This document shows positions 96 through 24,918 of a stretch of 25,358 bases of DNA, one piece after another (the first letter of the stretch is position 1; every line of letters begins with the position of its first letter). Where the stretch lies: positions 1 to 25,358 of the IMG/VR virus record IMGVR_UViG_3300006874_000125. One strand, given 5' to 3'. The notes below the pieces were generated by a model that saw only the letters and a program-made list of their open reading frames with translations, had not been told where the DNA came from and ran no database searches. The position numbers were made by a program, and so were the translations under genes. The DNA is from a virus.

Positions 96-1511
96 TTATC
101 CCTTGATTGCAACGTGCTGGTTAGCAGCACGAACCACGAGGTTACACTCCGAACGGTAGTGGAAGACCGCCTGGTCGCGACCTGCATCACCGTTGTTGTT
201 GTACCCCAACACGCCACCACCAGTCACCCAGTGCTCCATCTGACGGCTGTAGCCGTTGGCCTCCTTGTAGTACATGGCCAAGGACGGAGCCTTATTACCA
301 GTACGCGGGTCAGCCACGTTGGCCAGCGGGACCATAGCCCCCTGGTACACCGTGCTGGCGCCGAGGAGGGTGGGGTCGTTCAGCAGCTTCCAATCGTGCT
401 TGTGGAAGGTGTATCCACCACGCGTGAAGCTCTTGAAGCCAAGCTGTACAGCCATGTCAGCGTTGTTCTGGAACGCACCGAACTGACCAGGCAGACCTGC
501 CGTGACGCTCGTAGCGATACCAGAAGCCAACATGTCATCGATGGCCAAGTCTTGCTTCCGATTCAAGTACATGGCGTACTCTGCAGGAGCGCCGACCTTA
601 TCGAGCTCAAGGATGATGTCATCGATCTCAGCAAAGCTGTCGATCGGGTTAGCGTTGGCGCCAGAAACATTGATACCCAAAGTCTCCACTTGCGAGAAGT
701 ATCCGTCAGATCCAGCCAGGTCGTCCGTGAGATCCGTGCCACCCGCACTAGTGATGTATTGCTCACCGAAGAGGAGCATCATCTCACGCTGGTCCTCGAA
801 ACGCTTCCGAGCCTCCTGCTCTGCGTACATAAACCAACGGTACTCACCACCGCCGAGGTTGACCCAGCCGATGTTGGTAGCCTGTGAGCCACTCACCTCG
901 TGACGACCCTTGACGATCATGAACGGGTTGCTCCGCTTGTGAACGTCAGTTTCGTTGTAGGCACCAGGCTGCTCAGAACCTTGGGCGTACATATTGCCCA
1001 GCTTGATGAAGCTACCGTTACTACTGACATCAATGTCGGCTGCCGCGAACGTGCCACCGTCAAGCGGAACGAGGATAACGGGAGACACAGCAGTGCCCGT
1101 ACCGAAACCGCCAGACTGAACGATGAAGCGGGAGCCCGTATCGACTTCCATCAGCACGTCGTTAAGCTGGACGTTGTTCACGATATCGGTGTCCGTGCAG
1201 GTCACACTCACGCCAGCACCCGTATCAGAAGTGTTAGCAAGCGTGTAGTTCAAGACCCTGTGACGACGACCCACCTCGTACCAGTCGACCTGGTCTGAGG
1301 TTCCGCCGCTTTGTACGGCGCCCGTCAGCTCCAGGAATCCTGTGATGCCTTGGTTGCCGTAAGTCTCGACAAGCTCAGGCATGACGAAGTCCTTCGTCGT
1401 CTTGATCAGGGTGTCGAGAGTCGTGTATGTTTCAGGATTAGCACGAAAGTCGAGCGCAGCCTGGTTTTGGGTTGAAACGCCATTTGTAATAGCGCCTGTA
1501 GTTGTTGCCAT
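96..1511 (-). CDS. Major capsid protein
   Basis: A 471-aa protein that probably forms the icosahedral head shell. It has no signal peptide or membrane segment and is Gly/Asn/Thr rich, as expected for an HK97-fold capsid protein. A central block at residues 196-252 (KxRxEVSGxxATNxGWV, then WFMYAEQEARKRFEDxREM) resembles a conserved region I associate with crAss-like and related phage capsid proteins; that resemblance is from memory. The gene directly follows a scaffold-like gene, the classic scaffold-capsid order, with a 12-base gap. The ATG has an A-rich leader (AATAAGAAAAG) rather than a strong Shine-Dalgarno. Tandem hairpins follow the stop. No other protein here has the right size and position for this role. 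Confidence 0.85.
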   Translation of the reverse strand: MATTTGAITNGVSTQNQAALDFRANPETYTTLDTLIKTTKDFVMPELVETYGNQGITGFLELTGAVQSGGTSDQVDWYEVGRRHRVLNYTLANTSDTGAGVSVTCTDTDIVNNVQLNDVLMEVDTGSRFIVQSGGFGTGTAVSPVILVPLDGGTFAAADIDVSSNGSFIKLGNMYAQGSEQPGAYNETDVHKRSNPFMIVKGRHEVSGSQATNIGWVNLGGGEYRWFMYAEQEARKRFEDQREMMLLFGEQYITSAGGTDLTDDLAGSDGYFSQVETLGINVSGANANPIDSFAEIDDIILELDKVGAPAEYAMYLNRKQDLAIDDMLASGIATSVTAGLPGQFGAFQNNADMAVQLGFKSFTRGGYTFHKHDWKLLNDPTLLGASTVYQGAMVPLANVADPRTGNKAPSLAMYYKEANGYSRQMEHWVTGGGVLGYNNNGDAGRDQAVFHYRSECNLVVRAANQHVAIKG

Positions 1512-3834: not shown

Positions 3835-4068
3835 CTATTTGCGCTTTTTCTTTGCTTTGCTCTTAGCGCCAGCAGCAATCTTAGCTGCTTCTTTTTTACC
3901 AAAGGCAGACTTAACTCTAGCCATAGCCCAAGCATGTTGTGATGTCTTGGGTCTGTTTCCGCTGCTCATATATGCAGCCAAGCCTCTGCGATAAACTTCT
4001 TTCTGGGCAGCAGACAGCCCAGCCATACCCCCCTTCTTCGTCTTACCTCCTTTCTTGTAAACCTTCAT
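3835..4068 (-). CDS. Small very basic protein with Gly-Gly N-terminus
   Basis: A 77-aa protein with a large excess of Lys. The N-terminus MKVYKKGGKTKKGG resembles the basic Gly-Gly leaders of larger proteins at the right end of the window. A central segment (GNRPKTSQHAWAMARVKSAFGKKEAAK) is of a type common in small phage proteins encoded near head genes. The C-terminus is a run of Lys/Arg/Ala (AKSKAKKKRK). Nucleic-acid binding or charge neutralisation inside the capsid is plausible, but no defined fold is recognised. The ATG overlaps the upstream stop (ATGA). Confidence 0.6.
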   Translation of the reverse strand: MKVYKKGGKTKKGGMAGLSAAQKEVYRRGLAAYMSSGNRPKTSQHAWAMARVKSAFGKKEAAKIAAGAKSKAKKKRK

Positions 4069-8263: not shown

Positions 8264-10690
8264 TTATACCATATTGCTAAAGTCAAATCCTGAGGGCTGC
8301 TCCTCTAGTTCTGGGCGCTTTCCCTGGCGCTGGCTGATCAGCTTGCTTTGCTCAACAGCCTGCTTCTTCACGCGCTCGTCCTTGCGGTCATCCTTCTGCG
8401 TCTCAACCGCCTTCCTGCTCTGCACCTCTCCTTGCATAGTAGCGGCTTGAACTTGCAGTTTCATCTGCATAATCTCCTTTTCGAACTGATGCTTGATCTT
8501 AGCTAGTTCTAGATCAGCCATAGCTTTAGCCTGGATCACCTGGACGTCAGCTTGGGTCTGTGTAGCAATCTCTTGCTGACGACCTTGCATCTTGATAGCC
8601 TCTGCCTGCTGAGCCTGCTGAGCCTGCATCTGCTGCATCTGCATCTGCTGATCCTGTTGCTTTTTCATTCGCTTAGACCTGCGAATAATAAGTAGCCGTT
8701 CAGCCTGGTTGATGTCTTTTAGGTTTCGGATAGCCATTGCATCCTCAAGGTCTATTTCTTTTTGAGCTAGAGACATCTGAATGTTCTGCTCTAGGTATGC
8801 CTTGTCTTTATCCTCCATGTCCTTCATCACCTTCACCCCAAAATTGTACATTGGTAGGTCCGCGAAAGTGGCTAAGACATTCATGTTGCTATCCCCAATA
8901 GCATTTCGGTAGGCCGTATGAATGGCTGATTCTTGCGGCAGGATCTGAAGACACTTAACTACATCCTCACAAACCTTGCGATAAAGCACCATGGCGGCAT
9001 TGGTGATGTCGTATGTAGCGTTATTGCTGGCAGCGATAGCTTGCTGCTGGACACCAACCAGCGTATCCCCCTTCGGAGTTGACGCATCAGCCATTTCATT
9101 GATACCCGTGGTATCGCGAATCATGCGCAGATAGTGGTTGTACAGCGCAATGAGCTCGTTAATATTACGGATGCTGTTGCCTATCTCTCGTACTGGCGGA
9201 TTCTGGAAGCCACCCTCAGGGTTCTTACTTCGGTAGTAAAAGACCCCCGTCTGTTCGTAGATATCATGGAGATCCAAAGGTTGAAGCTCTCCGCCTTTAC
9301 CAAGCTGAACATTCTCCAGACCTTCAATATCAATAACCAGGCCGTCTGGTTTCGCTTTGGCAATGGCTTGCTGAAGTTTCAAGTGTGTAAGCTGCAGCAT
9401 ATCCGCAAACCCCACACACCCGTCAACCATAGACTTAGGCATATTAGCCACCATATTCGTCGACACCACAGAATACGACATCCGCGCCCTGGTGACATCA
9501 TGCATGTTCTTTGGCGTGTTGTACTGCTTACCATAATTAATCAGATGATCTGTACCTAGAATGTACATACCCTGGTAGATACACTCAACATCCATAGAGT
9601 GGGGGGTGCGATCGTAAACGCTACCTTTCTTCTCTTTATATGCAAAGCCCTCGTAGAAGAAGTTTGTATTCCCATACTGATTCTCCTTCTCCTCGAAGTA
9701 CATCGTGTCTACTGTCTTGAACTCAAACTCCAACACTTCAATAACATGGCCGCTGAAGTTCTGCTTCTGTAATCCACTGGTACTGTATGGGTGGTCAGGG
9801 TATTTGCTGGAGCTAGAACGCCGAGACTTTTTAAGCAGGTCTTTTAACTGCTGCTCGGTCATCTGATCCCCCGCCAAACGCTTCAGCTCAGCTAGAGTGA
9901 TTTCCCGTACATGCCCCATGTACACAACATCATCAAAATTGGGATCTTGCGTATACCCATGAACAAAATGTACTGGGTCTACATAGTCGAGCTTGATACC
10001 GTAGCTAGGGTCATTACTCCGTTTCACTACAGCCATACCGCAACTAGTCAAGTCATTGACGCAACGCCGATAAACCCCCTCACTAAAATCGTTCCACTGC
10101 AAGGTCATTTCCGTTGCAACCTGCGCCGCTATCTCTGCATCTGTTTTGATGTTAGTGGCCATAAAAATTTCGGCCTCTTCAGTCGTCTCAGGTATTTGCT
10201 CCGCAGGTTCATCTAGAACGGGCTGCCCCATGCGCTGCTCCAGCTCCATAAACATGGGGCGCATAGCCACCTTGTTCTGCATGATATTCTTCTGCAGATT
10301 CTTTTCGCTAGAAGACAAAGGGTCTACTGCCTCTAGGTTCGGATACATATTCCTACCTAGAATCTTGTTGACCACAACACGAACAAACTTGGGTAGAACA
10401 GGGACTGGGGTGTAGTCCAAATTCATCAAGGATCCCTCCCCGTTGTTTGGATCCGTAGTGTTTAGCAACTGCTTATAGATAGCAGTGTCCTGGGTTCCAT
10501 TCGCATAATCCCTGTTGCGAGCAAAGATATTCTTCCTACCCCCGAAAGTAGAAGTATTGTCCTGAGTGTTACCCCATTGCGCTTCGATTGCCTTAGCGTA
10601 CTTCAGCCCATATTCTTTGGAAAGCTTCTCCTCTTGCGGCGCCAGTGGATCTGGGAAACCACCTGGATCACCTGACTTATTGTTGTACAT
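8264..10690 (-). CDS. Portal protein
   Basis: An 808-aa protein expected to form the dodecameric ring at one capsid vertex through which DNA is packaged and ejected. The N-terminal third has features seen in large podovirus-type portals (NRDYANGTQDTAIYKQLL; DYTPVPVLPKFVRVV; a TEMTLQWNDFSE helix before a beta domain). A middle region carries the helical stem-like segment (NSIRNINELIALYNHYLRM, then GINEMADAS). From about residue 675 there is a long Gln/Met/Lys-rich coiled coil and a basic disordered tail, a barrel extension typical of larger portals. Its position directly after the terminase gene in transcription order agrees. A TATATTTG box lies 22 bases before the ATG. Confidence 0.85.
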   Translation of the reverse strand: MYNNKSGDPGGFPDPLAPQEEKLSKEYGLKYAKAIEAQWGNTQDNTSTFGGRKNIFARNRDYANGTQDTAIYKQLLNTTDPNNGEGSLMNLDYTPVPVLPKFVRVVVNKILGRNMYPNLEAVDPLSSSEKNLQKNIMQNKVAMRPMFMELEQRMGQPVLDEPAEQIPETTEEAEIFMATNIKTDAEIAAQVATEMTLQWNDFSEGVYRRCVNDLTSCGMAVVKRSNDPSYGIKLDYVDPVHFVHGYTQDPNFDDVVYMGHVREITLAELKRLAGDQMTEQQLKDLLKKSRRSSSSKYPDHPYSTSGLQKQNFSGHVIEVLEFEFKTVDTMYFEEKENQYGNTNFFYEGFAYKEKKGSVYDRTPHSMDVECIYQGMYILGTDHLINYGKQYNTPKNMHDVTRARMSYSVVSTNMVANMPKSMVDGCVGFADMLQLTHLKLQQAIAKAKPDGLVIDIEGLENVQLGKGGELQPLDLHDIYEQTGVFYYRSKNPEGGFQNPPVREIGNSIRNINELIALYNHYLRMIRDTTGINEMADASTPKGDTLVGVQQQAIAASNNATYDITNAAMVLYRKVCEDVVKCLQILPQESAIHTAYRNAIGDSNMNVLATFADLPMYNFGVKVMKDMEDKDKAYLEQNIQMSLAQKEIDLEDAMAIRNLKDINQAERLLIIRRSKRMKKQQDQQMQMQQMQAQQAQQAEAIKMQGRQQEIATQTQADVQVIQAKAMADLELAKIKHQFEKEIMQMKLQVQAATMQGEVQSRKAVETQKDDRKDERVKKQAVEQSKLISQRQGKRPELEEQPSGFDFSNMV

Positions 10691-10726: not shown

Positions 10727-12844
10727 TCATCCGCGCACCTTATAACGCCTAAAAAAGCGCTTCTCGTCAAATTTAGAGTCTTGTTTTTTCTGCTTGACTT
10801 TTTGTGCCGCTAATAATGCTAAGCCAGAGCTAATGGTAAGGTCGAATCGCGTCCTGTTATTGATGTCGTAGCCAATCCAGTCCTCCAGGGTTTTATTGAA
10901 ATACATTGCCCCCATCTCCCCAGTCTCTCTATTAACGCCAACATGGTTGTGGATGTAGGCCTCGATAGCCTGGGCGTGGGACTGTATTACATCTTGAGAA
11001 TTAGACGGGATACCCTTCGTCTTTACCTTGATGTTTGTGTTGGGGGCAGATAGGTGCTTAGGCCTATCCAAAAGATACCCATCATATCCACGTTGCTCAA
11101 AGTACCGCGCAATACCATACTTGTTGTTCTCTATCAGTATCGGGTATCCGTAGAAGACTGCGGCCATAAGTACGTCTTCATAAAAGATCGAAGCCAGCGG
11201 AGGACGGGAAGCGTACTCCAACACAAACATATTAGCAGGAGCATCCATGCTAAACTTATTGTATAAGTGCAATGCTCCTTTAGATCCTCTGCCGTCAACA
11301 GTGGCGTCAAGATCATAACTATCCACGCCGCCACAACCAAGATGTGTATTAGGCGCCACCCTTTTGTTTCTTTCATATACTTTCAAATTACGCTGCCCAG
11401 ACTCTGGCATCCACGCCACCTTAAACCTACCCTTAGGGTCTGGAGTGAACACAACCTCAGTATCCTTTACACCACCTTTCCATGTGAAGCTACCCGTCAC
11501 CACAGGGTTTGGGAATAGATCATCGTTGTGTTCTATCTGCTCATAGATCTGGCCGATATTAAACAGACTAGCCTCAATGCTATCCCTAAAAGCTTCGTCT
11601 GTAGTAAATGGGAACTGCCTTATGATCTCATTCAGCTCACTAGGATCATCGCGCAAACTATCCCTCTCGTTCTTCAAGAAGGTCTTCGCCCCCATGTGTA
11701 TCCACTCCCCATCAATACCTTCAACTGGCTCCTTTGGGTCGTCCACTACGGGGTGCCCGTACAGATCAAAGAACCCCTCTAGAGAGTCGTGGGCTGGGAT
11801 GAACAGCCGATACAACCCAGACCTAGTCCTCCCATTCTTGTTCCGCTCCTGAGGATCCGAGTCCGCCCATAAATCTTTGTACTCGCTTCCGCCTTTCCCC
11901 ATTGGATTCACGGTGCTTCCGACCATGGCCTTGCCTACGACCTTCCGACCAACGATCAAACATGTCCGCTGGATCCTCCAGGCCTCTCTTATGTCTGTTG
12001 GTTTTTCCCATTTGCCTGCCTCATCTAAGTATAGCAGGTGAAGTTTCTCCCCGTCGTATGCGTTGTTTGTGGTGTTCTTCCAATTGATCACCGTATTCAA
12101 GGCGTCACCAACCTGTGCTGTTTTGTTTTTCTTCGTGATCTTCTTCGATGGTTCTCGGAACGCCAACTCCATACGGGGATTCGTTGTACCATCCTGAATA
12201 GGCTTGAAGAAGAATGGGTACTTGCGGAACATGTTGACCACCTTCTTCATGAAGATGTTCTCTTGAGCGTCCTTACCCGTCTTACTCTGAATGCCTATCA
12301 GCTTGTCCTTGACCTGCGTAGCTTCATCTACGATGACAGAAGAGCATATGTTGGTGTATCCTGATCTACGGCATTTGGTATATAGCTGTCCGATACAACG
12401 AGGGTCCGCCTCACACGCAGCCAAATGTAAGAAAATATCTCTCTGGAAATCAAGGTAGTAAGGGGCACCGATGTCCAGCTGCCCCCACTGCAGCATCATA
12501 TAGTGACGACCCGTGATGTATGTAGCATCACCTCGATTATAAAACCAAACGCCCTCACGCCTACGCCGAAACTCCTCCTCGATGTATGGACGAAACTTTT
12601 CTCTGAACTCCCTCGGCATCTCCGCCCACTCATCCATAGAACGTATACGCGATAACTCCTTGGGAAGATCAACGCGCCGCCAATGCTGATCAGCAATGGG
12701 AAGACCATGGAAGAGGATGTCTCGGACCTTAGGCGCCTTGGGTAAGACAATGACAATCCCACCGACCTCGATGTGGTCGCCCAGCGTACCGTTGGCACAA
12801 ATCGCCACGCCCTGTTCATCATATCCCTCTACCTTAACTAGCAT
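10727..12844 (-). CDS. terL: Terminase large subunit
   Basis: A 705-aa packaging motor with ATPase and nuclease halves. The adenine- and phosphate-binding part shows YTKCRRSGYTN (residues 155-165), a variant Walker A of the R-R-x-G-x-T type seen in many terminases. Walker B is LYLDEAGK (271-278), with DE as metal and catalytic acids. A coupling motif GSTVNP follows at 309-314. The C-terminal RNase H-like nuclease begins with GVDSYDLD (506-513), giving the first metal-binding Asp residues. It is large for TerL because of an N-terminal extension of about 130 residues. No small terminase is obvious nearby. Its ATG overlaps the stop of the GT-A-like gene (TAATG). Confidence 0.93.
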   Translation of the reverse strand: MLVKVEGYDEQGVAICANGTLGDHIEVGGIVIVLPKAPKVRDILFHGLPIADQHWRRVDLPKELSRIRSMDEWAEMPREFREKFRPYIEEEFRRRREGVWFYNRGDATYITGRHYMMLQWGQLDIGAPYYLDFQRDIFLHLAACEADPRCIGQLYTKCRRSGYTNICSSVIVDEATQVKDKLIGIQSKTGKDAQENIFMKKVVNMFRKYPFFFKPIQDGTTNPRMELAFREPSKKITKKNKTAQVGDALNTVINWKNTTNNAYDGEKLHLLYLDEAGKWEKPTDIREAWRIQRTCLIVGRKVVGKAMVGSTVNPMGKGGSEYKDLWADSDPQERNKNGRTRSGLYRLFIPAHDSLEGFFDLYGHPVVDDPKEPVEGIDGEWIHMGAKTFLKNERDSLRDDPSELNEIIRQFPFTTDEAFRDSIEASLFNIGQIYEQIEHNDDLFPNPVVTGSFTWKGGVKDTEVVFTPDPKGRFKVAWMPESGQRNLKVYERNKRVAPNTHLGCGGVDSYDLDATVDGRGSKGALHLYNKFSMDAPANMFVLEYASRPPLASIFYEDVLMAAVFYGYPILIENNKYGIARYFEQRGYDGYLLDRPKHLSAPNTNIKVKTKGIPSNSQDVIQSHAQAIEAYIHNHVGVNRETGEMGAMYFNKTLEDWIGYDINNRTRFDLTISSGLALLAAQKVKQKKQDSKFDEKRFFRRYKVRG

Positions 12845-13868: not shown

Positions 13869-14155
13869 TTTGAAAATCTTTCTGCAAAACCACCAGAGTA
13901 ATCCTTATCCTCTGTCATGGTTCCGCTCAAAGTAAGATCTTTCATCATCTGCTCCAGCCGCTGTCTTTCAACAAGAAGTTCTTTACAATCTATAGCCGTC
14001 TGCTTAATAGACTGAAGCTCAGCCTTTCTAGCGCTACCATTGATCTCCTTGTCTACAGGCTTTTTGATTTCCTCAATCATATTGTTGATAGCTACCTCCA
14101 TAGAAGCCATCAACCGACGAGCAGCATCAATCGTGGTGAATTGCTTTCTGGACAT
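13865..14155 (-). CDS. Small helical hypothetical protein
   Basis: A 96-aa protein that is charged, almost entirely helical and probably coiled-coil (RRLMASMEVAINNMIEEIKK; AELQSIKQTAIDCKELLVER; RLEQMMKDL). The ATG at 14155 is chosen although the frame is open to 14314, because the extra segment lies inside the co-chaperonin gene and is Cys/Arg/Trp rich like an out-of-frame read. It overlaps the co-chaperonin gene by 29 bases and the following gene by four. A small DNA-packaging accessory is conceivable from position near terL, but there is no direct sign of it. Confidence 0.6.
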   Translation of the reverse strand: MSRKQFTTIDAARRLMASMEVAINNMIEEIKKPVDKEINGSARKAELQSIKQTAIDCKELLVERQRLEQMMKDLTLSGTMTEDKDYSGGFAERFSK

Positions 14156-14723
14156 ACAGTAAGTCTTCGGTTCGTACTCGGTACATCGTCTCGTCGTTGA
14201 CCTTAAAATCGTAACGCAGCTTGCTAGGGAAAACAACCACATCACCCTCTTCAATCCCCAGGTCCTTGTGCATATACGTTCGATACGCAAGAACTCCACG
14301 ATCTGGATCAGCATCCTTTAGTCGCACCTCTGTCCACAGCTGCGTGCGATCCACTATCTCCTCCTGGTGTGGGCGAAGGATAGACCACATAGACAATGGT
14401 ATGACATCATCCTCACCTTTCGGGGTGTACGCAAAAGCATGGCAGTTGATGGTGACATCAGGATCGTAGCTTACCAAGTACTCCCCCTCCCTGTCTGCAA
14501 AAGGCATCCCCCCATTGATGACCACCAAATGATGGAAGTACAATGTGTCCCCTACTTTGACAGGGGTGTCGTACTTCTTCGGTACCGACACCACCTCCCC
14601 TTCACACACCCTATGTTCAAACTCGTTGAACTTAGTCTCCATGTAGATATTCTGGTCACCCAGCTTAATCTCGTCTTGCAGCAGCTTGTCTAGCTTCACC
14701 ACAAAGTAATGCAGCATATCCAT
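14127..14723 (-). CDS. GroES-like viral co-chaperonin
   Basis: A 198-aa protein. The N-terminus (FVVKLDKLLQDEIKLGDQNIYM) and the block GEVVSVPKKYDTPVKVGDTLYFHHLVV (residues 42-68) resemble phage co-chaperonins. The C-terminal block LGIEEGDVVVFPSKLRYDF, then VNDETMYRVRTEDLLYV (residues 155-191) has the GD-V-x-F ... Y ... R-x-x-D-[IL]-L pattern at the end of Cpn10/GroES. An insert of about 70 residues separates the halves, so the protein is twice the usual 95-110 aa. Known phage co-chaperonins (T4 Gp31 type) work with host GroEL to fold capsid proteins. No GroEL gene is in the window. The ATG overlaps the upstream stop (TAATG). Confidence 0.7.
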   Translation of the reverse strand: MDMLHYFVVKLDKLLQDEIKLGDQNIYMETKFNEFEHRVCEGEVVSVPKKYDTPVKVGDTLYFHHLVVINGGMPFADREGEYLVSYDPDVTINCHAFAYTPKGEDDVIPLSMWSILRPHQEEIVDRTQLWTEVRLKDADPDRGVLAYRTYMHKDLGIEEGDVVVFPSKLRYDFKVNDETMYRVRTEDLLYVQKAIHHD

Positions 14724-16992: not shown

Positions 16993-17268
16993 TCAACAGT
17001 TAGGGTTTCGACAAGACAATGACGTTTTCCTCCCCTTCGCTTTATTCCTCTTCTGGCTTACGCTCTGTTTTACCCTACGCATAAGAGAATTTCGATTTAC
17101 AACCTTAGGGCGGGGAGCCTCCTCTTCTTCCTCTTCTTCTTCCTCCTCCTCCATTTCCCCCTCCATCTGCGAGGAGGGTAAGAACCTAGGGTTTGATGGT
17201 GCTACGTTTCTACGCTGTTTCTTTATTCTGCGAAACACACCGCCATCGTCATACTTGCGTACTTTCAT
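16993..17268 (-). CDS. Small protein with Gly-Gly leader and poly-Glu run
   Basis: A 91-aa protein split into three charge blocks. The N-terminus MKVRKYDDGG (residues 1-10) is a clear copy of the basic Gly-Gly leader seen in other proteins here. It is followed by a basic stretch (FRRIKKQRRN). Residues 36-50 are acidic with eleven Glu in a row, and the C-terminal 40 residues are strongly basic with two Cys at the end. This is probably a disordered internal virion protein. Its ATG overlaps the upstream stop (TGATG). No enzymatic domain is present. Confidence 0.6.
   Translation of the reverse strand: MKVRKYDDGGVFRRIKKQRRNVAPSNPRFLPSSQMEGEMEEEEEEEEEEEAPRPKVVNRNSLMRRVKQSVSQKRNKAKGRKTSLSCRNPNC
17119..17151 (-). 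repeat. Poly-Glu coding microsatellite
   Basis: Eleven consecutive Glu codons (GAG/GAA mixed) inside the 91-aa protein gene. On the plus strand it reads as CTC/TTC trinucleotides. The codon mix makes pure slippage less likely than with a single-codon run, but length variation among relatives would be expected. Confidence 0.8.
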
Positions 17269-17885
17269 CAGTCTGGCCCCAATCCCAACATCATACCAAG
17301 ACGCTGCAGAGCATTGAGGTCAACATCATAGGTCTGACCAGACGCTCCGATCGGACGCTGCACTGTCTTAGGCGTCTTGCTGTACTGTGAGATCCCATAC
17401 CCCAACAGTCCAGCCAGGGCCTGACGAGCCAGCATACGAGCAGACTCATTCATGAAACCCTTGTTCACCATCCGCTCGCGCTCAAAGCGATCATTGCCCA
17501 GACCCTCCAACAAGAAATCTACCTCCTGCGGCTCTGCGGGGAACATGCCTGTTTGGCGCCCTTCACGGTTTGCAGCGCGGCGCTCCTGGCGGGCCATCTT
17601 ACGAAGCTCTGCTTCAATACCCTTCTGAGCAAAGAAATTGTCGGTAGTCTGAGGATCCCTCCCCATAGCCATGCGTCGGGGATCACCCCCCATCATACCT
17701 CCGTCAGCGTAGTACATTCCGCCACCACCGTAACGAAGAGGAGACTCCACGTCGCGGCCCTCCCTGTCCGAACGCCTGGCTTCTCTCCGAGAGTCTTTCA
17801 TAAAACGACGCTGAGCCCTTCTAGTCTCTCGCTGCTGTTTGCGAAGTTGACGACGTGGACCCCCGTCAGAGTAAGTAATATTCAT
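17268..17885 (-). CDS. Arg-rich virion-type protein with Gly-Gly motifs
   Basis: A 205-aa protein. It begins MNITYSDGG (Gly-Gly at residues 8-9), continues with an Arg-rich helical stretch (about residues 11-45), and repeats similar motifs as RYGGGG (51-56), YADGG (59-63) and MMGG (64-67). The second half has helices with Arg/Glu (ELRKMARQERRAANREGRQ) and ends with a hydrophobic segment and LNALQRLGMMLGLGPD. Composition suits an internal DNA-associated virion protein. The ATG at 17885 is preferred over the upstream TTG because it gives an ATGA overlap. The family is not otherwise recognised. Confidence 0.65.
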   Translation of the reverse strand: MNITYSDGGPRRQLRKQQRETRRAQRRFMKDSRREARRSDREGRDVESPLRYGGGGMYYADGGMMGGDPRRMAMGRDPQTTDNFFAQKGIEAELRKMARQERRAANREGRQTGMFPAEPQEVDFLLEGLGNDRFERERMVNKGFMNESARMLARQALAGLLGYGISQYSKTPKTVQRPIGASGQTYDVDLNALQRLGMMLGLGPD

Positions 17886-18334
17886 GTCAGTGCTGCAAAT
17901 ACCTCGACCTGGCAAGACGCTGTGTTTGCCTGTGCTAGGATGTTATCTATGTCTGTGAGATTACCAGCCGCTGCACTTGCATCGCCAGCAGCATTGGCGT
18001 CGAGTTTACTGTTAAACAAGACGTAGCTCTCGCCTGCGTCAAGCTTTACCATGTATTCCTCTGTGCTATCATTCTGGATTGTGATCGCCACATAGTTCGT
18101 AGCATCCAGGTTAGTGATGCGGAAGTATGCTACGTTCGTAGTCAAAAGCGTCCCTCCAGCTGCGTTTGCTGCCGTAGCGTCCATCTGAAGGATCGTCTGA
18201 GAAGCGGCTGTGCCAATGTCCATGATCCGATGGAATGTCTCTGTGATGTTTGCCACATCAATAGAAACTTCACTCCCGCGTTCCCTGCCATTCAGCTCAA
18301 GCTCCTCGTATAGTTTTACCGTTAGGACTGCCAT
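17882..18334 (-). CDS. Beta-rich structural-type protein
   Basis: A 150-aa protein, acidic and Ala/Asn/Thr rich. Its middle (YFRITNLDATNYVAITIQND, then YMVKLDAGESYVLFNS) parallels segments of the two small proteins at 2979-3386 and 3386-3796, suggesting a shared fold. The N-terminal MAVLTVKLYEELELNG also looks like a beta strand at the edge of a sandwich. It is the first gene after a TATATTTG box whose end is 4 bases from the ATG, and its stop overlaps the next start (ATGA). It is probably a minor virion component; the exact role is unknown. Confidence 0.65.
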   Translation of the reverse strand: MAVLTVKLYEELELNGRERGSEVSIDVANITETFHRIMDIGTAASQTILQMDATAANAAGGTLLTTNVAYFRITNLDATNYVAITIQNDSTEEYMVKLDAGESYVLFNSKLDANAAGDASAAAGNLTDIDNILAQANTASCQVEVFAALT

Positions 18335-18338
18335 TGTA

Positions 18339-18346
18339 CAAATATA
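18339..18346 (-). promoter_or_regulatory. TATATTTG box 4 bases before the ATG
   Basis: An exact TATATTTG on the minus strand, followed by TACA and the ATG at 18334. It lies in the 18-base gap after the 24-aa membrane peptide gene. Spacing is identical to the copies at 4923 and 16443. No clear -33 box is seen. Confidence 0.5.
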
Positions 18347-18352
18347 ACCATA

Positions 18353-18427
18353 TTAATCTTCTACCTTAGACAGGGTGTACGCAGTAAGCAGTGCCATACC
18401 AACCAGAATTGCTATTACTAAAGTCAT
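18353..18427 (-). CDS. 24-aa transmembrane peptide
   Basis: A tiny reading frame that fills most of the gap between two genes. The peptide starts MTLVIAILVGMALLTAY, a single hydrophobic helix of about 16 residues, and ends with the polar tail TLSKVED. The ATG overlaps the stop of the preceding gene as ATGA, the same coupling used by many junctions here, and the next gene starts 18 bases later after a TATATTTG box. That context makes translation likely. Single-pass peptides of this size in phages can be lysis regulators, membrane-fusion helpers or modulators of host proteins; which applies is not visible. Confidence 0.55.
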   Translation of the reverse strand: MTLVIAILVGMALLTAYTLSKVED

Positions 18428-19392
18428 GACTCAATCTCGTATTTGTCTCGATACTTTTGAATCTCCTCTTCACCAAGGTCTCTGACCCTCCACTGTTTTC
18501 TTTTGTCGTCCCACTCTTTAATGGCGTAAGGGACCTGGCCTGTCCTAGTGCTCCCCCTAGCTCCAGTATTTGCGGCCTTGAATAAATATTCTGGCTGCCT
18601 GCCAGTGGGCGCCTTGACCACTCTAACCTTACGTTCAGGAGTCGGGGCTGGTTTGGGGGCAGGATCTGGCTCAGGTTCGGGTTCGGGTTTCGGAGGAGGA
18701 TCCCGCTTTACAACTTTAAATTTCTCTTTCTTCTTTTCCTCCCAGGGTTCGGGACCATACTTTTCCCTACGCTGCTTCTTTTCTTCTTCCGTGAGGAGGT
18801 CATAGGGTTTTACAGCTAGAGGATCGTAGTAAGGGAATTCTATAATATCATATTGATCAGTGGTCTCTTTCTCCCATGAAGGCATAATTTCTCGATGCAC
18901 CATGGGGTCTACAACAGGGGCTATGTCGGATTCTCCAGTAATTAATCCTTGCGGTTGAATCCCAGTGTCATAATACCCAAGGCCAAGTCTAGGATTTATA
19001 ACTCCAGTAGTCATCTCCCTTACTCTCGTTACGTCTCCCTCAGTCGTATTGTTGAATATCCCATAATAGTCATCTATTGTTGGTATCCTACCAGAAGCTT
19101 TATAGGCTGCATCAAAATTAACAAGAGCATCTTCGTACTCTTTTTTTTCCGCATCCGAATAGTTGCCTCTAGCCCTTCTTAGATGTTGTGCCATCTTGTA
19201 GAGTGTCCCAGGATCTGTATTTGCAGACGTTGTGTACTCCCACATATTTAGGACGGTGTTCAGATGTTCAGCCGCATAATATGCATCTAGACTATCTTGC
19301 CTAGTAGCTACAGACGTAGGGAAGGCATCCTCAGCACCTTCTGGTGGCCAGTTTCCATGCCTGCCTCCGTGTTCATATTTCTTTAGTCTCAT
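18424..19392 (-). CDS. Proline-rich virion-type protein with Gly-Gly leader
   Basis: A 322-aa protein. It begins MRLKKYEHGG (Gly-Gly at residues 9-10), followed by AFPTSVATRQDSLDAYYAAEHLN, a start I associate with virion-region proteins of marine phages. A helical part (PGTLYKMAQHLRRARGNYSDAEKKEYEDALVNF) is followed by a Tyr/Pro-rich segment. About residues 225-248 form a Pro-Glu/Pro-Lys string, an extended linker. The ATG at 19392 replaces the apparent GTG start at 19509, because the intervening 117 bases encode another small protein in a different frame and the ATG makes an ATGA overlap with it. Function is unknown; an internal or tail-tip protein is likely. Confidence 0.65.
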   Translation of the reverse strand: MRLKKYEHGGRHGNWPPEGAEDAFPTSVATRQDSLDAYYAAEHLNTVLNMWEYTTSANTDPGTLYKMAQHLRRARGNYSDAEKKEYEDALVNFDAAYKASGRIPTIDDYYGIFNNTTEGDVTRVREMTTGVINPRLGLGYYDTGIQPQGLITGESDIAPVVDPMVHREIMPSWEKETTDQYDIIEFPYYDPLAVKPYDLLTEEEKKQRREKYGPEPWEEKKKEKFKVVKRDPPPKPEPEPEPDPAPKPAPTPERKVRVVKAPTGRQPEYLFKAANTGARGSTRTGQVPYAIKEWDDKRKQWRVRDLGEEEIQKYRDKYEIES

Positions 19393-19526
19393 CCTGAACA
19401 GCTTTCGCAATCCTCTGGGGAGTCCAGGTTGCAGGTGATCTCCCCACTCTTCAGCTTCTCTGCCGTCTCCTGGAGCTTCTTCTTGTCTAGGAATGTTGGG
19501 GCATCCCACTCTTCTTCTCTGTTCAT
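19389..19526 (-). CDS. 45-aa acidic protein with three cysteines
   Basis: A small gene hidden between two larger ones. It starts MNREEEWDAPTFLDKKKLQE, continues with a helical acidic-basic stretch and ends ITCNLDSPEDCESCSG, with Cys at 32, 40 and 43 (C-x7-C-x2-C). Its ATG overlaps the 1355-aa gene stop (ATGA at 19523-19526) and its stop overlaps the next ATG (ATGA at 19389-19392). Perfect four-base junctions at both ends are strong evidence that it is translated. Three Cys could bind a metal as a dimer or form disulfides; this is speculative. No family is recognised. Confidence 0.65.
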   Translation of the reverse strand: MNREEEWDAPTFLDKKKLQETAEKLKSGEITCNLDSPEDCESCSG

Positions 19527-22500
19527 CGCTTGATTACTTTCATAGGTTTGCGCTTCTTTACTCTCACCCTACCACCATACTTATAGCCTCGTACTTCGCC
19601 TTCCCCCCGCTGCATGGACTTAGGTACCTTGAGCTCGAACCATTCATTTCCGTGCTGGTCAGTGACTGGCTTTAGATTGTAACCCATCTTTTTAGCAATC
19701 TTAGGTAGGCGATCATAACTGTTCATGACCGTCTTCAGATCGTCCCGTATACCCTCACCATTTAGAATAGCTCGCAACTGGTCCTCCTGTGACTGAAGGT
19801 GCGTCTGTTGCGATCCGATATCACCATGGGAAATAGCGCCTCTTTTCAAAGAATACCCTAAGTTTTCAATTCCGGTTCGGAAACTAATTAAACCTCGAAT
19901 ACTAGCTGCGTTATCACCAATGGCCCCACCCAACTTATTCAGCTCTACTGCTTTTTGAGCTAGGAAATCCTGGAGTTCGGACTCGGTAACCATATAACCA
20001 AGTTCTTGGATCATTGCTCCTGCCCGTTGCGGACCGCCAGGAGTCTGCGCAATAGGCATAAAAATCAATTTCTGCGACTCACCGTAACCACCCCCAAACC
20101 CAGAATTCCATCCCAGGCTCCTATGACTACCCTCACCGAACGTCAGTTCCGTCAGCTGCTTTGCCTTTTGATTCTTGGCAATCTGACTCGCCGAGTTCGA
20201 GGGCATGATACCATAGTTTTCGATGTAGTGGTAAACCAAGTCTCCCACAGAGAAGTTGAGCTCGTCGCCAAACTTCCAAGGATTGAAATGCCCCTTATAG
20301 GCCAAGTGGCTAGAGAACTCATCTATCACTTTTTTCTGGAATAGCAGCCCACCAGGATCATTAGCATCTATGTACAGCTTATACGCTGGGTGCTCAAGGA
20401 AGTCGCCATTTAGATATGCTTCTGCCTCAAGCCTAGGGATTTGTGGGATTCCAGTAAAATCATGAGGGTTCGAATTCGCAAAGCTCTCCACACGATCGAT
20501 TAGGGTATCGATTATTAGGTCCATGTCTGAAGAGCCCTTGAACCGCTCATACTTGCCAAGCATATCCTGGCCAGTTCCAGGGTATTTAGGATCCACAGCA
20601 TAGATTTGCATTACGTAATTGACATTACTGTGCAATCGGCCTGGCTCCCTAGGTAAGGTGCTCGCTACGTATTCGGCTGCTTCTCTAAACTCTTGAGCAC
20701 GGAGATCCGCAATGTTGGTTCTGACACGACCCTGTTGGAATGCATTTACAAACGTCATGAAGTTGTACAAGTGTACATCCTTCTGCATTTGAGGAGACAC
20801 CTTGCCTTCATAAATGGCTGACTCAGTATTGCCAGGATAATACACCACCCGATCCAGAACTGGGTCGGCCATTGTAGCGCCATCGGGAGTGCGTTGTGTG
20901 TAGCCTTCGATATCTGTAAATCGTGGTTTTCCAGAGTCACCCACGATCTTAGTTCCAAAAAGAAGCTCCTGAGTGACTGGGCCTAGAGCATCAATTTGAT
21001 CTCCAAAGTAAGTCGTAGATCCATCTTGAAACACAGACTTAAAACCTTCAATACCCCCCTCCGGATTGTCGATTAGGTTATTGGCTCTTGTGACGTCCCC
21101 TCTTAGGTGCTCGATGGATTCTCTGGTTCTCTGGATCTCCTGCTCGAACCTTACGGGGCTTCTAAAGAAACCCTGTATGATTCCTGTCGTTTGTCCTGTC
21201 GGGAATCTAATTGCCTTATACTGACTATTCTGTTGAATGATCTGGCTAAGTAGAAACTCGTCCTGGTTCTTAACGAAGTGACTCTGGATTTTTTCATCCT
21301 GGGCAGGGTACTCACTACCAATTTCCATATCACGATATGTCCCGTCGTGAAAGACCATGGCCATCTCCGCGTCATAACCCTGCTGCCTCTCTAGTAGATC
21401 CTTCAAGACCTCCAGGCTCTGATCATATGAAGATTGGATGTAGGCGTTTGTAAAAGTGCCAGGTGGATTGACATCATTTTTTTGCAACGCCTCTATAATG
21501 TCTTCGATGGCTATCTCCATATCAATAGCTATGTTACTGAGGTCAGGACTAGTAGAATCGAGCCACTCAAGCTCAAGGCCTGGGTGACCATCCTGCCACA
21601 CTTTTATTGCTTCTTGGTAGAACCTGCGAGCTATCCCCTTGCTGTTCTTATTTAGATCCCGATATGTTCTGTACAGGTCTCTGACTTGCCCCTGCAAACC
21701 CATCCAGTAATTGACGTCGTACAAGAACTCGTTCTCTGGGGTAATCACACCATCACCCAGTACGTCCTTTATCTGCTCCATGACATCATCGTATCCACTC
21801 GGTGCTGTGGCCTCGATATCAAATTCTACAGGCATATTAAAGAAGAGCTCGTGCGGGTTGCGGGCTTCAGGTAGATTACGGAATGCATAGCGTCGGGCAC
21901 TATCATAGGCGTCATCTGGGAACTGATACGTATACCGCATAACTCCGTTTTCATCTGGAGCCTGTCGCATAATATCCTGAGGGAAGTCTTTGACGTAGTC
22001 ATAAGAATCTTTGAGGAACCTGCCGCTTTGAGCGACATCTGACTGCATCTCTGAGATGTACAGGGTTCTTGTATCAGCCAAGTTGCCACCTCGTACAAAC
22101 CCTCGGTAGTGAGCGACAATGTCTGGTGAAATTTCTCTCCAATGTCCAGAGCTTGCACCAATGTAGCTCTTGCCTATTTCACTTTCCCGATTGGCGACTA
22201 TCAATTTAGTTCCAATACTCTGAATTTCGTTTTTGGGACCTCGAAGATTTCCTGTGCCGTAGTCAGTATAACTGTCTGTTTCATCAAGAGAGAAGCGCTC
22301 CTGCAAATTTGCTGCGGCGAAGTTGCGCAGGTCGCGGAGGTTGTAAAACTCCTTACCCTTTTTGCCAGGTACCGTACCTAGCTCCATCATGGCTTGTTCC
22401 AATACAGCTTTGTCAAACGTACTCAACCCCCCTTTCTCCAGGAACTGGGCGAGCTGGTCCTTCGGAATCATCCCCTGTTTATTCGCACGCTTCTCCAAAT

Positions 22501-23590
22501 CGCCCCCAATCATCAAAGCAGGAATCTGCTGAACAGGTTGAGTTGTGTTTCCGTAAACATCAGCATGCTGACGATGCTGTATTTTGCCTAGCTCATTGAT
22601 AAATGCAGTCGCGCGATGCTCATCTCCAGATGGAGCAAGAGCCTGATAATCTGCTTCGGTCATGTCCCGAAGCACTTTGTACGGCATCTTACTGGCCGCT
22701 TCGCGTGCCATTTCTTGGCCCTGATTTTGGTTACGCCTGAAGCTTATGTTTTGCCCCTCGATGCGGGCCATCTCTGGAGATCCTGGCAAACCCCTTCGCC
22801 CCAGGACAGCCTCCTCTCCAGTAAGGATTTCGGCTTCTACCGCTGCCTCTTCCGCTGCAGAGAACATACCAGAGGAGGACGGTCGGCGTCCCAGCATATC
22901 CATTCTGCGAGCCCCTTCAGGTGTCAAGCCAGAAGCGAATCTTTCCATCTCACTTGCCATACGTCCAGGCTGGTCTACGATATCGGACGTTCGGGCCGTG
23001 TACTTAGGGTCCTTCCCCATCATACGACGGAAGAAGTTGCGTACATCTTCAGCCCCCTCACGCAGCACCCCGCCAACAGCAGGACCACTCGGCATCTTAC
23101 GCATTGCTGCACTCGAAGCTGCTGCCACTATACTGGGTAGATCGTCGGCATCCACCCCATCAGCCAGCATGCGATTGATCAGTGCTGGGGTCCCAAAAGG
23201 AGTGAAGTACAAGGGAAGCTCGATAGCCTCATACCCTCTGTTCTGTGCGTCGACTACCCCCTGGGTCATATCCAGGTAGTCAGTCACACCTTGGCTCCCC
23301 AGGTTGCGATACACTGCAGCCAAATCCCCTTCTGTCCTGGCGATACGCTCAGGCAGCATAGCGTTGACGTAAGTTGGATCTGACCTGTCTGTGATGACCT
23401 CAGCTGCAGGGAGGTTGACCTGAGTTACTGGTAGATTGTACGGATCAGAAGTCGGGATCATTGTTTGACCCTGATACCTATCTAAGTAATCAAGTAGCTC
23501 TGTAACATTCGTTGGGCGACCACCGTCGTTGTACTTAGGGATTCGCTTCTTTTTTATTTGCGTCCCCTTTCGCCTACTCTTACTCAGCAT
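19523..23590 (-). CDS. Giant virion-associated protein (1355 aa) with Gly-Gly tags
   Basis: The largest protein here. Residues 15-24 (KRIPKYNDGG) are a Gly-Gly leader followed by PTNVTELLDYL, nearly the same as in the 442-aa protein just upstream. Residues about 483-521 (HWREISPDIVAHYRG, then TLYISEMQSDVAQSGR) and 1292-1310 (YDRLPKIAKKMGYNLKPV) resemble segments of large polyvalent-type proteins of phages; the catalytic nature of that module is unclear to me. The C-terminus ends YKYGG (1336-1340) plus a strongly basic tail. There are no collagen or membrane segments. Ejected internal virion protein is the best guess. The ATG overlaps the upstream stop (TAATG). Confidence 0.6.
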   Translation of the reverse strand: MLSKSRRKGTQIKKKRIPKYNDGGRPTNVTELLDYLDRYQGQTMIPTSDPYNLPVTQVNLPAAEVITDRSDPTYVNAMLPERIARTEGDLAAVYRNLGSQGVTDYLDMTQGVVDAQNRGYEAIELPLYFTPFGTPALINRMLADGVDADDLPSIVAAASSAAMRKMPSGPAVGGVLREGAEDVRNFFRRMMGKDPKYTARTSDIVDQPGRMASEMERFASGLTPEGARRMDMLGRRPSSSGMFSAAEEAAVEAEILTGEEAVLGRRGLPGSPEMARIEGQNISFRRNQNQGQEMAREAASKMPYKVLRDMTEADYQALAPSGDEHRATAFINELGKIQHRQHADVYGNTTQPVQQIPALMIGGDLEKRANKQGMIPKDQLAQFLEKGGLSTFDKAVLEQAMMELGTVPGKKGKEFYNLRDLRNFAAANLQERFSLDETDSYTDYGTGNLRGPKNEIQSIGTKLIVANRESEIGKSYIGASSGHWREISPDIVAHYRGFVRGGNLADTRTLYISEMQSDVAQSGRFLKDSYDYVKDFPQDIMRQAPDENGVMRYTYQFPDDAYDSARRYAFRNLPEARNPHELFFNMPVEFDIEATAPSGYDDVMEQIKDVLGDGVITPENEFLYDVNYWMGLQGQVRDLYRTYRDLNKNSKGIARRFYQEAIKVWQDGHPGLELEWLDSTSPDLSNIAIDMEIAIEDIIEALQKNDVNPPGTFTNAYIQSSYDQSLEVLKDLLERQQGYDAEMAMVFHDGTYRDMEIGSEYPAQDEKIQSHFVKNQDEFLLSQIIQQNSQYKAIRFPTGQTTGIIQGFFRSPVRFEQEIQRTRESIEHLRGDVTRANNLIDNPEGGIEGFKSVFQDGSTTYFGDQIDALGPVTQELLFGTKIVGDSGKPRFTDIEGYTQRTPDGATMADPVLDRVVYYPGNTESAIYEGKVSPQMQKDVHLYNFMTFVNAFQQGRVRTNIADLRAQEFREAAEYVASTLPREPGRLHSNVNYVMQIYAVDPKYPGTGQDMLGKYERFKGSSDMDLIIDTLIDRVESFANSNPHDFTGIPQIPRLEAEAYLNGDFLEHPAYKLYIDANDPGGLLFQKKVIDEFSSHLAYKGHFNPWKFGDELNFSVGDLVYHYIENYGIMPSNSASQIAKNQKAKQLTELTFGEGSHRSLGWNSGFGGGYGESQKLIFMPIAQTPGGPQRAGAMIQELGYMVTESELQDFLAQKAVELNKLGGAIGDNAASIRGLISFRTGIENLGYSLKRGAISHGDIGSQQTHLQSQEDQLRAILNGEGIRDDLKTVMNSYDRLPKIAKKMGYNLKPVTDQHGNEWFELKVPKSMQRGEGEVRGYKYGGRVRVKKRKPMKVIKR

Positions 23591-24918
23591 TACTTCTTCT
23601 TAATCTTGTATGGGATTTTACCACCGTATTCGTTACGCATAGTTGGTGAAGCTAAGTCTTCAGGGGATAGGCCCACGCGAAGCTGGTTGATGCGATCAAT
23701 CATATCGCGCATGTAGTTGTCACTTGGCATACGGCCATATTGGTTACGGAAATCCTGAACGGCCTGTAGCGCCATCCGAACCACAGCTGCATCGTCCATG
23801 TCATCCGTATATTGCACTGCCGCCCTAACTATATCCTCCCTTTCGGACTTTAGTGCATCAAGCTTTGCTTTAGCAGTTGCGCGATCTGCAAGAGGCCCAT
23901 TGATAGCATCGAACTCTAGCTCATCAATTTGTTTTTGTAAATCCTGTAGCACGTCACTAGCAGCCAAATTGCCACGACGTAGAGACTCCTCCAACGGCAT
24001 CCCGCCACGGCGGCTTGCTGCGCTGACGATCTCTCGATCACTCAAAGGATACATCTCACCATACCCCATTACCGTAAAGGGTTCCTCGCTACCATCCACA
24101 TACCCATAACCATGTCCATACCCATACATCATCTCCACATTGTTGATCTCCTTGTTGACTAGGTCGCGTGCATCTTGTAGAGTAGCCCCTGGCTTCAACA
24201 TCCCATCTTCAATCATCTCATCAATGAGGGGCTGCTGGATTGCAGGATCGAGAGTGTCATCAAACAACATAGAAACTTGTTTCCGTTGCATATTTGCAAT
24301 GTTGCTTGTTGCGAGGTTATCTATTGGCCTAGCAATCCCTTGCCTATCAGCACCAGCCTTCAAGTCGGTGTTTAGGTTGGCAGTAGGGGAGTTTTGACGG
24401 TACATACCACTCAACTGACTTTCCGTCGGGGTGGGGAGGACACGTCCTCTGATAGCCTTGTACGCATCAGCGCCATACCGACCCATAGCCCCAGGGAGCA
24501 GTGCAAGCAGTGCCCCTAGTCCTGCTGCATCATAATCCTGGTTGTAGGCATCGCGACCGATGTACCCTGCCTCCATCAGGTCCCCTAGTATTGGCGTCAT
24601 ACCTGCAGCAAACTCCCCCATCTGCGATTTCATCTGGTCTGCAGTCCCCCCAGGGCGCATAAACTCGCGTTGACGCTGTTCTTCTGCGCTATAGAACCTT
24701 TGACCCCCACCAATTGACCTTTGTGTGGGTGGGGTGTAGTTACGCAAGTCAGGACGCGCAGGTTCTGGGGGTGTCGTCCTGCGCATTTGGTTAGTGCGGA
24801 TGTCCTCATCTTGCGATGTAGGTGCAATGGTAGAGGGGCGGAGATCGTAGCTGAGAGCATCAAGCAACTCCCTGACATTTGTAGGGTAACCCCCGTCTTG
24901 CAACTTCTTGATTTTCAT
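23590..24918 (-). CDS. Virion-associated protein (442 aa) with Gly-Gly tags
   Basis: First gene of the right-hand unit. It begins MKIKKLQDGGYPTNVRELLD, the same leader plus PTNVxELLDxL extension as the next protein. Residues about 104-145 (GMTPILGDLMEAGYIGRD, then GLGALLALLPGAMG) recall Gly/Ala-rich hydrophobic segments found before effector domains in secreted toxins and in ejected phage proteins. A Gly/Tyr-rich patch (YGYGHGYGYVDG) and long charged helices follow. The end NEYGGKIPYKIKKK parallels the C-terminal YGG plus basic tail of its neighbour. No enzymatic motif is recognised. A canonical promoter lies about 145 bases upstream. Confidence 0.65.
   Translation of the reverse strand: MKIKKLQDGGYPTNVRELLDALSYDLRPSTIAPTSQDEDIRTNQMRRTTPPEPARPDLRNYTPPTQRSIGGGQRFYSAEEQRQREFMRPGGTADQMKSQMGEFAAGMTPILGDLMEAGYIGRDAYNQDYDAAGLGALLALLPGAMGRYGADAYKAIRGRVLPTPTESQLSGMYRQNSPTANLNTDLKAGADRQGIARPIDNLATSNIANMQRKQVSMLFDDTLDPAIQQPLIDEMIEDGMLKPGATLQDARDLVNKEINNVEMMYGYGHGYGYVDGSEEPFTVMGYGEMYPLSDREIVSAASRRGGMPLEESLRRGNLAASDVLQDLQKQIDELEFDAINGPLADRATAKAKLDALKSEREDIVRAAVQYTDDMDDAAVVRMALQAVQDFRNQYGRMPSDNYMRDMIDRINQLRVGLSPEDLASPTMRNEYGGKIPYKIKKK

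Follow-up and report, generated by a model that had tools for sequence, protein, structure and literature searches.

A short basic leader ending in Gly-Gly on diverse late proteins of an uncultured phage clade: a candidate virion-loading tag

Several proteins encoded in a viral DNA stretch (IMG/VR record IMGVR_UViG_3300006874_000125) share a short basic leader that ends in Gly-Gly. The stretch, referred to below as the window, is the entire virus record of 25,358 bases and represents a partial genome. By comparing this leader among relatives of the phage, we came to the view that it is, on balance, probably a portable virion-loading tag for cargo that would be ejected from the particle. What may be new here is a capsid-targeting peptide with a new sequence that takes a two-ended form and may have a counterpart in crAss-like phages.

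A preliminary description of the window had reported the leader on six proteins, and all six leaders were found at the positions given there:

23590..24918, minus strand: 442-amino acid (aa) protein; leader MKIKKLQDGG (24889-24918), followed by a PTNVRELLDAL motif; C-terminal end YGGKIPYKIKKK (23593-23628, minus strand)
19523..23590, minus strand: 1355-aa protein; KRIPKYNDGG at residues 15-24 (23519-23548); C-terminal mirror of the leader, YGGRVRVKKRKPMKVIKR (19526-19579, minus strand)
18424..19392, minus strand: 322-aa protein, MRLKKYEHGGRHGNWPPE, with leader MRLKKYEHGG; counted from the ATG at 19392, the mechanical open reading frame (ORF) opening further upstream at a GTG
17268..17885, minus strand: 205-aa protein; leader MNITYSDGG, internal YGGGGMYYADGGMMGG; start at the ATG at 17885
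16993..17268, minus strand: 91-aa protein; leader MKVRKYDDGG
3835..4068, minus strand: 77-aa basic protein between the portal and capsid genes; leader MKVYKKGGKTKKGG

The first five of these, together with a 150-aa protein, form a gene cluster on the minus strand. In the 91-, 322-, 1355- and 77-aa proteins the leader is basic and has YxxGG; the 442-aa protein has LxxGG, and the 205-aa protein has YxxGG without a preceding basic stretch. The pattern [KR].?[YF]..GG was found within the first 30 residues of 4 of the 32 window genes, as compared with a mean of 0.10 and a maximum of 3 in 5000 shuffles, and the leaders of the 442-aa protein (L for Y) and the 205-aa protein (K/R missing directly before Y) are near-misses. 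Proteins elsewhere that are similar to the 91-aa protein begin with MKCKKKYNDGG and MRCKKYNDGG. The bodies behind the leaders had been described as unrelated, which is slightly wrong for the 442- and 1355-aa proteins, because these have short linear motifs in common, i.e., GG[YR]PTNVxELLDxL behind the leader and, at the C terminus, YGG[KR][IV].. followed by basic residues. A short V-x-x-L-L-x-x-L motif after the tag could be read in several proteins, including these two. No Pfam family matched the 1355-aa protein above the cut-off, and a fold model of a 255-residue region of it had a mean predicted local distance difference test (pLDDT) score of 56; its LYISExQxD motif presumably resembles sequences of phage polyvalent proteins.

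Relatives were collected with the large terminase subunit of the window as bait. This yielded at least 600 stretches in IMG/VR, the best 80 of which were kept as a sample of non-redundant records (the clade) with 1515 ORFs whose start lies inside the record. The clade counts are approximate because the automatic choice of ORFs misses some real genes, including the window's 91-aa gene. The leader occurred in the first 40 residues of 76 of the 1515 ORFs, whereas 200 shuffles gave a mean of 4.7 and a maximum of 13, i.e., a 16-fold excess (the figure 76 counts ORFs; 112 motif matches are obtained when overlapping matches are counted). Spacing between the aromatic residue and the glycines was strict, with 76 ORFs having YxxGG, 6 having YxGG and 5 having YxxxGG, where Y stands for Y or F. 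The N-terminal tag rate was 5.0% per ORF versus 0.74% per internal window of 40 residues. When the leader was removed from 83 ORFs tagged in their first 60 residues, the remaining sequences fell into 41 clusters by BLASTP; since a few clusters are chance matches or doubtful, the number of tagged protein families is about 35-40. For 62 of these ORFs, the distance from the nearest possible start to the end of the GG is at most 12 residues. Alignment of the leaders gives the consensus K-K-[YF]-x-x-G-G; past the second Gly, K (32 of 75) is the sole residue with a marked preference. Gly and Tyr codons inside the tag follow background usage, which argues for selection on the peptide, and a DNA-level element as the conserved unit was therefore rejected. 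A strict tag was present at least once in 29 of the 51 records of at least 8 kb. Some matches should be set aside: in family F10 (DYKKEY.KYGKGGK; 5 of the 76 N-terminal matches) the pattern lies inside a domain and looks unrelated, and the matches at G007 47724 and G011 9699 are probably due to chance.

The leader has a counterpart at the other end of the proteins. A mirror pattern, GG[KRF][IVFLM].{1,3}[KR][KR] in the last 25 residues, was found in 16 of 1488 ORFs, compared with 0.62 in shuffles (maximum 4, 50 shuffles). Twelve of the 14 mirror-bearing ORFs with a known N terminus were also tagged there (looser form, [YFLMI], first 60 residues), and the two that were not are both on contig G002. 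In the window, the 1355-aa protein ends with the mirror YGGRVRVKKRKPMKVIKR, and the end of the 442-aa protein, YGGKIPYKIKKK, falls narrowly outside the strict pattern. In a 1354-aa protein of L072, the sequence around residue 240 (NHGGRVRKYQDGGDVNDLL) looks as if the C-terminal tag of one protein had been fused to the N-terminal tag of the next.

Bodies are also exchanged behind a retained leader. The third gene of the cluster keeps its leader in the window (MRLKKYEHGGRHGNWPPE), in L140 (MRLKKYQHGGGHDEDPPE) and in L003 (MRVRSKYLHGGRHDEDPPE), and the bodies of these three proteins have no detectable homology (best E 0.18). L140 is a close relative, its 1355-aa protein being 71% identical to that of the window, and leaders are recognizable in it at the 442-, 1355-, 322- and 205-aa positions (e.g., MKIRKMQHGG and KVKKYQEGG). 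Its homologue of the 442-aa protein has 410 aa and reads MKIRKMQHGG .. GGKIPYKVIKR, its counterpart of the 205-aa leader is MKMMYKNGG, and the 91-aa gene is missing from it. Another leader, RK[YF]HxGGKGPGHPH, heads three mutually non-homologous bodies in six proteins (L020, L037, L040 and L072), and two different bodies with this leader adjoin in L037 and likewise in L072. Conversely, tagged small domains have homologues without the tag in pelagiphages and cyanophages, as does the core of the 77-aa window protein in one phage of each kind.

Twelve contigs have a portal gene, and on these the late strand had 23 tagged ORFs among 492 and the opposite, early strand 1 among 180 (Fisher P=0.008); the sole tagged ORF on the early strand looks like a chance match. 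Five of these contigs had no strict tag. The tag is confined to late-strand genes. None of the terminase (0/72), portal (0/76) or capsid (0/19) family members carried it. Among named relatives, i.e., Panino, Gundel_1, phi38:1, phi18:3 and elemoE (about 50 kb each) and MW202828 (whole), 2 of 338 ORFs matched, both chance-like, and the count was 2 of 510 when stretches of two cyanophages and one marine virus were added. We also searched viral contigs at the DNA level. A pattern for M-K-x-K-Y-Q-N-G-G had zero matches, and a 29-base pattern for M-K-x-K-K-Y-x-[DHNY]-G-G was found in 94 viral stretches, 80 loci of which were named in the resulting table and 79, the new ones, were examined. Clade markers were present locally at 39 of the 79. 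For the other 40, the clade terminase was on the contig at 65% identity or more in 10 cases and as a weak match only in 3, which left 27 unassigned.

Most tagged proteins matched no known family. Among 50 scanned, one had an SLT lytic transglycosylase domain (Pfam, 8.8e-10) and one matched phrog_342, "internal virion protein with endolysin domain"; these are most likely the same protein, L037:2533-3072, the SLT member having been placed there by sequence reading alone and the phrog_342 match being assumed to lie on it. Two of the 50 had EF-hands in the Pfam scan, and EF-hand-like DxNxDG proteins with several YxxGG/GGKM repeats are present at G006 6005-6682 and L020 2650-3135. For 10 large tagged proteins all Pfam matches were below the cut-off, and per-protein rescans of 10 and another 10 proteins found little. 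A 956-aa protein (L193 3610-6480) has a lysozyme-like region fused to domains of the 1355-aa type.

An HExxH motif was enriched among tagged proteins, where tagged means the looser N-terminal form or the C-terminal mirror: among ORFs of at least 150 aa, it was present in 9 of 61 that were tagged and in 11 of 690 that were not (P=7e-6). A zincin-like family with this motif occurs in 15 of the 80 records, and the H-E and the second H of HExxH are invariant in its 12 aligned sequences (alignment A3). A model of this family had a pLDDT of 73 and no significant match by Foldseek. Among the matches listed above Z 5 by VIA was PPEP-2 (Z 6.2, root-mean-square deviation 3.7, 122 residues), which is under the guide value of Z 8, and the others were fifteen entries of anthrax lethal factor. 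Both proteins are zinc metalloproteases. The family is a candidate for a zincin fold, the VIA level being too low to trust alone.

The DUF6321 family offers a suggestive parallel. Its homologues in six cyanophages are stand-alone proteins in two (S-CAM3 and Sf-CH11) and lie inside a larger annotated protein in four. The stand-alone copies (L131 401-682 and L127 1501-1782, respectively) belong to T4-like cyanophages and begin with MKSFK[DQ]LRSDI[TN]EA, which we take to resemble the capsid-targeting sequence (CTS) of T4. When two 50-kb cyanophage stretches were scanned with a rough CTS pattern, one further ORF matched. The pelagiphage copy of DUF6321 has no leader, and 2 of the 8 clade members have a strict tag.

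An experimental anchor is provided by the Bacteroides gut phage crAss001. Mass spectrometry identified its gp45, gp46, gp47, gp49 and gp50 as cargo, and cryo-EM resolved gp45 (C1) both in the tail barrel and at the inner portal, to which it is bound (PMC10172136). Among 101 crAss001 ORFs of at least 60 aa, only gp45 carries a basic leader with [YF]xxGG as its end inside the first 32 residues (MAKKKIKRRGKMPPNIFDTGG). At its C terminus it has the mirror motif, GGKVRTKKKKG. A second C-terminal match in crAss001 (71061-73181) was rejected as an artefact of a 30-residue window, there being no GG in the last 25 residues. The looser N-terminal motif, which gp45 fits, was found in 32 of 1515 clade ORFs and in none of the 510 control ORFs. 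Six gp45 proteins, that of crAss001 included, were read out of 60 records with a match, and the leader was kept in five of them (FDTGG, FADGG, FAEGG, FAIGG and YLLGG). The 92-kb contig G047, which matches crAss001 gp47 (E 6e-14) and gp50 (E 4e-13), is crAss-like. It encodes a strictly tagged protein of 1489 aa, followed by a 773-aa protein whose start is of a looser basic-GG form; the gp47-like gene comes four genes after the first and three after the second. The tagged clade proteins resemble gp45 of crAss001 and other Crassvirales in a basic N-terminal stretch closed by [YF]xxGG, kept in five of the six, and share with gp45 of crAss001 and cr106 a C terminus of GG and basic residues; they differ in that gp45 is a single tagged protein rather than a swapped set, with no homology detected.

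Of the known systems, the T4 CTS is the closest in kind. In T4, ten N-terminal residues suffice for incorporation, the internal proteins are otherwise highly diverse, and processing at both ends is known for Alt (PMC9026906, PMC3012670). The clade leader is likewise a peptide of about 10 residues at the N terminus of diverse, otherwise unrelated proteins, as shown by the 41 clusters and by the body swap at one locus. It differs in its peptide, KKYxxGG, and in the C-terminal mirror, which recurs between proteins as a motif in its own right. The full consensus of the T4 protease gp21 is [LI]-x-E. The clade leader ends in GG, with no Glu there and no site of this type, for which LIE is the form given for gp21 (PMC9026906). 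No gp21-family protease was found by Pfam or PHROG in 85 of 106 listed ORFs of two contigs (25 of 60 PHROG families shown), or by Pfam in four giant proteins. In addition, the relatives of the window's terminase are Flavobacterium and Cellulophaga phages, not T4-like ones.

Short leaders ending in Gly-Gly are also known from substrates of C39 peptidases, and the consensus of these has a hydrophobic residue at position -4. The clade leader is basic instead. At -4, the 75 aligned leaders have mostly K, N, Q, G, E or H, and of the 69 that were itemized, 4 have L, I or V there; the cargo, unlike that of the C39 system, reaches 1355 aa. No C39 peptidase-transporter was among the Pfam matches of 85 ORFs of two relatives, the window being a partial genome. 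A third comparison is with the polyvalent proteins of phages and conjugative elements; for those of phages with metallopeptidase and lysozyme domains, packaging and injection have been described or predicted (PMC5512222). The clade proteins have similarly large fused architectures, zincin-like and peptidoglycan-lytic domains and a virion-gene context. No named Pfam polyvalent domain was found in the 10 large tagged proteins with E up to 5. LPD38, a polyvalent-protein domain, was found by Pfam in two of the four giant proteins, which are untagged (L119 2897-8161 and L097 6739-15063). The preliminary description knew of no described system with this leader; we found none in the open-licence literature either, where such motifs are hard to find by word search.

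If the leader is a virion-loading tag, it would dock proteins to an inner component of the virion during assembly, which may be the scaffold, the inner capsid or the inner portal region, the last being the site occupied by crAss001 gp45. A fast-changing set of cargo proteins, including the lytic transglycosylase, zincin-like, EF-hand, small basic and large multidomain proteins, would be packed inside the particle, ejected with the DNA and active at the start of infection. The tag would work like the T4 CTS, but its peptide differs and a cleavage site of the T4 type seems to be absent. Loading of cargo into the head was part of the original proposal, and it gained indirect support from the confinement to the late strand, the modularity, and the presence of leader and mirror on gp45, a proven cargo protein.

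A number of observations weigh against this interpretation. Position among late genes would also fit roles in lysis or in the tail. No isolate with the tag was found, 22 of the 51 records of at least 8 kb had no strict tag, and in four families only 7 of 17, 4 of 11, 2 of 8 and 5 of 16 members had one; furthermore, YxxGG copies are found internally, in 57 of 7697 windows of 40 residues. The crAss001 anchor has its own weak points. Its gp45 fits only the looser motif, as K/R is missing directly before F, and a match on one of the five cargo proteins among 101 ORFs has a coincidence probability of about 5%. The other four, gp46, gp47, gp49 and gp50, are all without the tag, which is therefore not needed for loading in crAss001. 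Among the six gp45 proteins, that of cr128 has no leader, and two meet the C-terminal pattern (crAss001, and cr106 with GGKLKKKKG); three others have a single GG among basic residues at the C-terminal end, and DAC15 has none. Because the six are related, the gp45 leader represents conservation, not repeated origin. A profile of the six (824 positions) had no match with E up to 10 among 3204 ORFs of the clade and relatives, so the shared peptide would be convergent or exchanged without the body.

The original proposal had also allowed for proteolytic trimming, and a related alternative is that the leader is a propeptide which a phage protease cuts after Gly-Gly in head maturation, as gp21 does in T4, with the zincin-like family as the possible enzyme. 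We consider this unlikely. It would account for the sharp end of conservation at the second Gly, after which the residue is variable apart from the partial preference for K, and for the HExxH family of 15 records whose listed VIA matches above Z 5 were PPEP-2 and anthrax lethal factor; moreover, the most N-terminal gp45 peptide named in the source is 79-101 (PMC10172136). However, the GG copies inside the proteins and near their C termini would be cut as well, and the structural matches of the zincin model are poor, as noted above. HExxH/HDxxH was absent from the scanned ORFs of the window, itself a partial genome, and the zincin-like proteins are often tagged themselves and therefore fit cargo better than enzyme. 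No protease for Gly-Gly was evident in the Pfam and PHROG matches listed for the two contigs, or by Pfam in the four giants, and trimming thus found no support. A site for an adenovirus-type protease was rejected, since the consensus of this enzyme needs a hydrophobic residue that is mostly missing from the leaders.

Alternatively, the tag could be a nucleic-acid- or nucleoid-binding peptide that holds late proteins on phage DNA, packaging being a by-product. The very basic nature of leaders and C-terminal mirrors and the occurrence of small basic proteins among the tagged families agree with such a role, but the strict [YF]-x-x-G-G spacing exceeds what charge requires, and genes on the opposite strand, DNA-processing ones included, lack the tag, which makes this explanation quite improbable. 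A leader that serves lysis or the cell envelope, or that is a translation-level feature of late genes, is in our view very unlikely. A DUF5675 gene does adjoin the tagged genes of the window, and relatives have holin and glucosaminidase families; however, a similar leader is present on a proven cargo protein of crAss001, tag codons vary as background, and a C-terminal copy cannot act on initiation. Finally, the motif is short and some matches, such as G007 47724, are due to chance, but an origin of the whole pattern in chance or in the composition of Lys- and Gly-rich N termini is hardly credible: it is refuted by the excess over shuffles and the strict spacing, and the DNA pattern for a single form of the tag recurs in 94 viral stretches.

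Returning to the virion-loading tag, we tentatively consider a broader form of it, which we find possible though somewhat doubtful, i.e., that a two-ended loading code, N-terminal basic-[YF]xxGG and C-terminal GG-[KR]-hydrophobic-basic, extends across Bacteroidota phages, from the uncultured flavophage relatives to Crassvirales, docks any protein that bears it at the inner capsid or portal for ejection into the host, and underlies a rapidly changing set of injected effectors. If a loading tag is indeed at work, a short peptide would predict virion cargo, and hence injected early proteins, straight from sequence. Its reach would cover the large uncultured phage group represented by the IMG/VR terminase relatives and probably crAss-like phages too. 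It would reveal many unannotated candidate effectors and could be used to bring foreign proteins into Bacteroides phage particles; it would also be a second example, beside T4 and with another peptide, of selection on a tag while the cargo turns over.

The recognizable window genes are all on the minus strand. Besides the tagged ones, they include the following:

96..1511, minus strand: capsid-type virion protein (phrog_13704), untagged
5195-6502 and 6502-7776, minus strand: repeat protein with an RCC1-like look and collagen-like protein, assigned from their sequences by eye
8264..10690, minus strand: portal (phrog_6547), untagged
10727..12844, minus strand: terminase large subunit (phrog_6681), untagged
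minus strand: E-rich protein, possible scaffold
minus strand: DUF5675 protein (Pfam), several small genes and small basic genes

The RCC1-like repeat protein and the collagen-like protein come directly after the portal and are perhaps surface fibres. Adjoining the terminase is the window copy (13865-14314, minus strand) of a family of about 97 aa that occurs in 44 of the 80 records; its usual C-terminal end is Y-[ST]-G-G-F-A-E-R-F-S-K, and it is perhaps the small terminase.

GenBank has 108 phage records with a match to the window terminase, all of them at less than 60% identity and most of them from Flavobacterium elemo and Cellulophaga phages. Two terminase relatives were detected in species genomes; the contigs bearing them are titled Bacteroidetes and Maricaulis. 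One of the 85 ORFs of relatives G006 and G010 has the type IX secretion sorting domain Por_Secre_tail (Pfam, 2e-8). Taken together, the terminase relatives and the sorting domain suggest a Bacteroidota host. Three phage proteins (G010 18874-21090, G005 38519-40747 and G055 19274-21346) appear on inspection to combine a signal peptide with a type IX secretion-like end at the C terminus. Phage-encoded proteins that apparently use the type IX secretion of the host are unusual.

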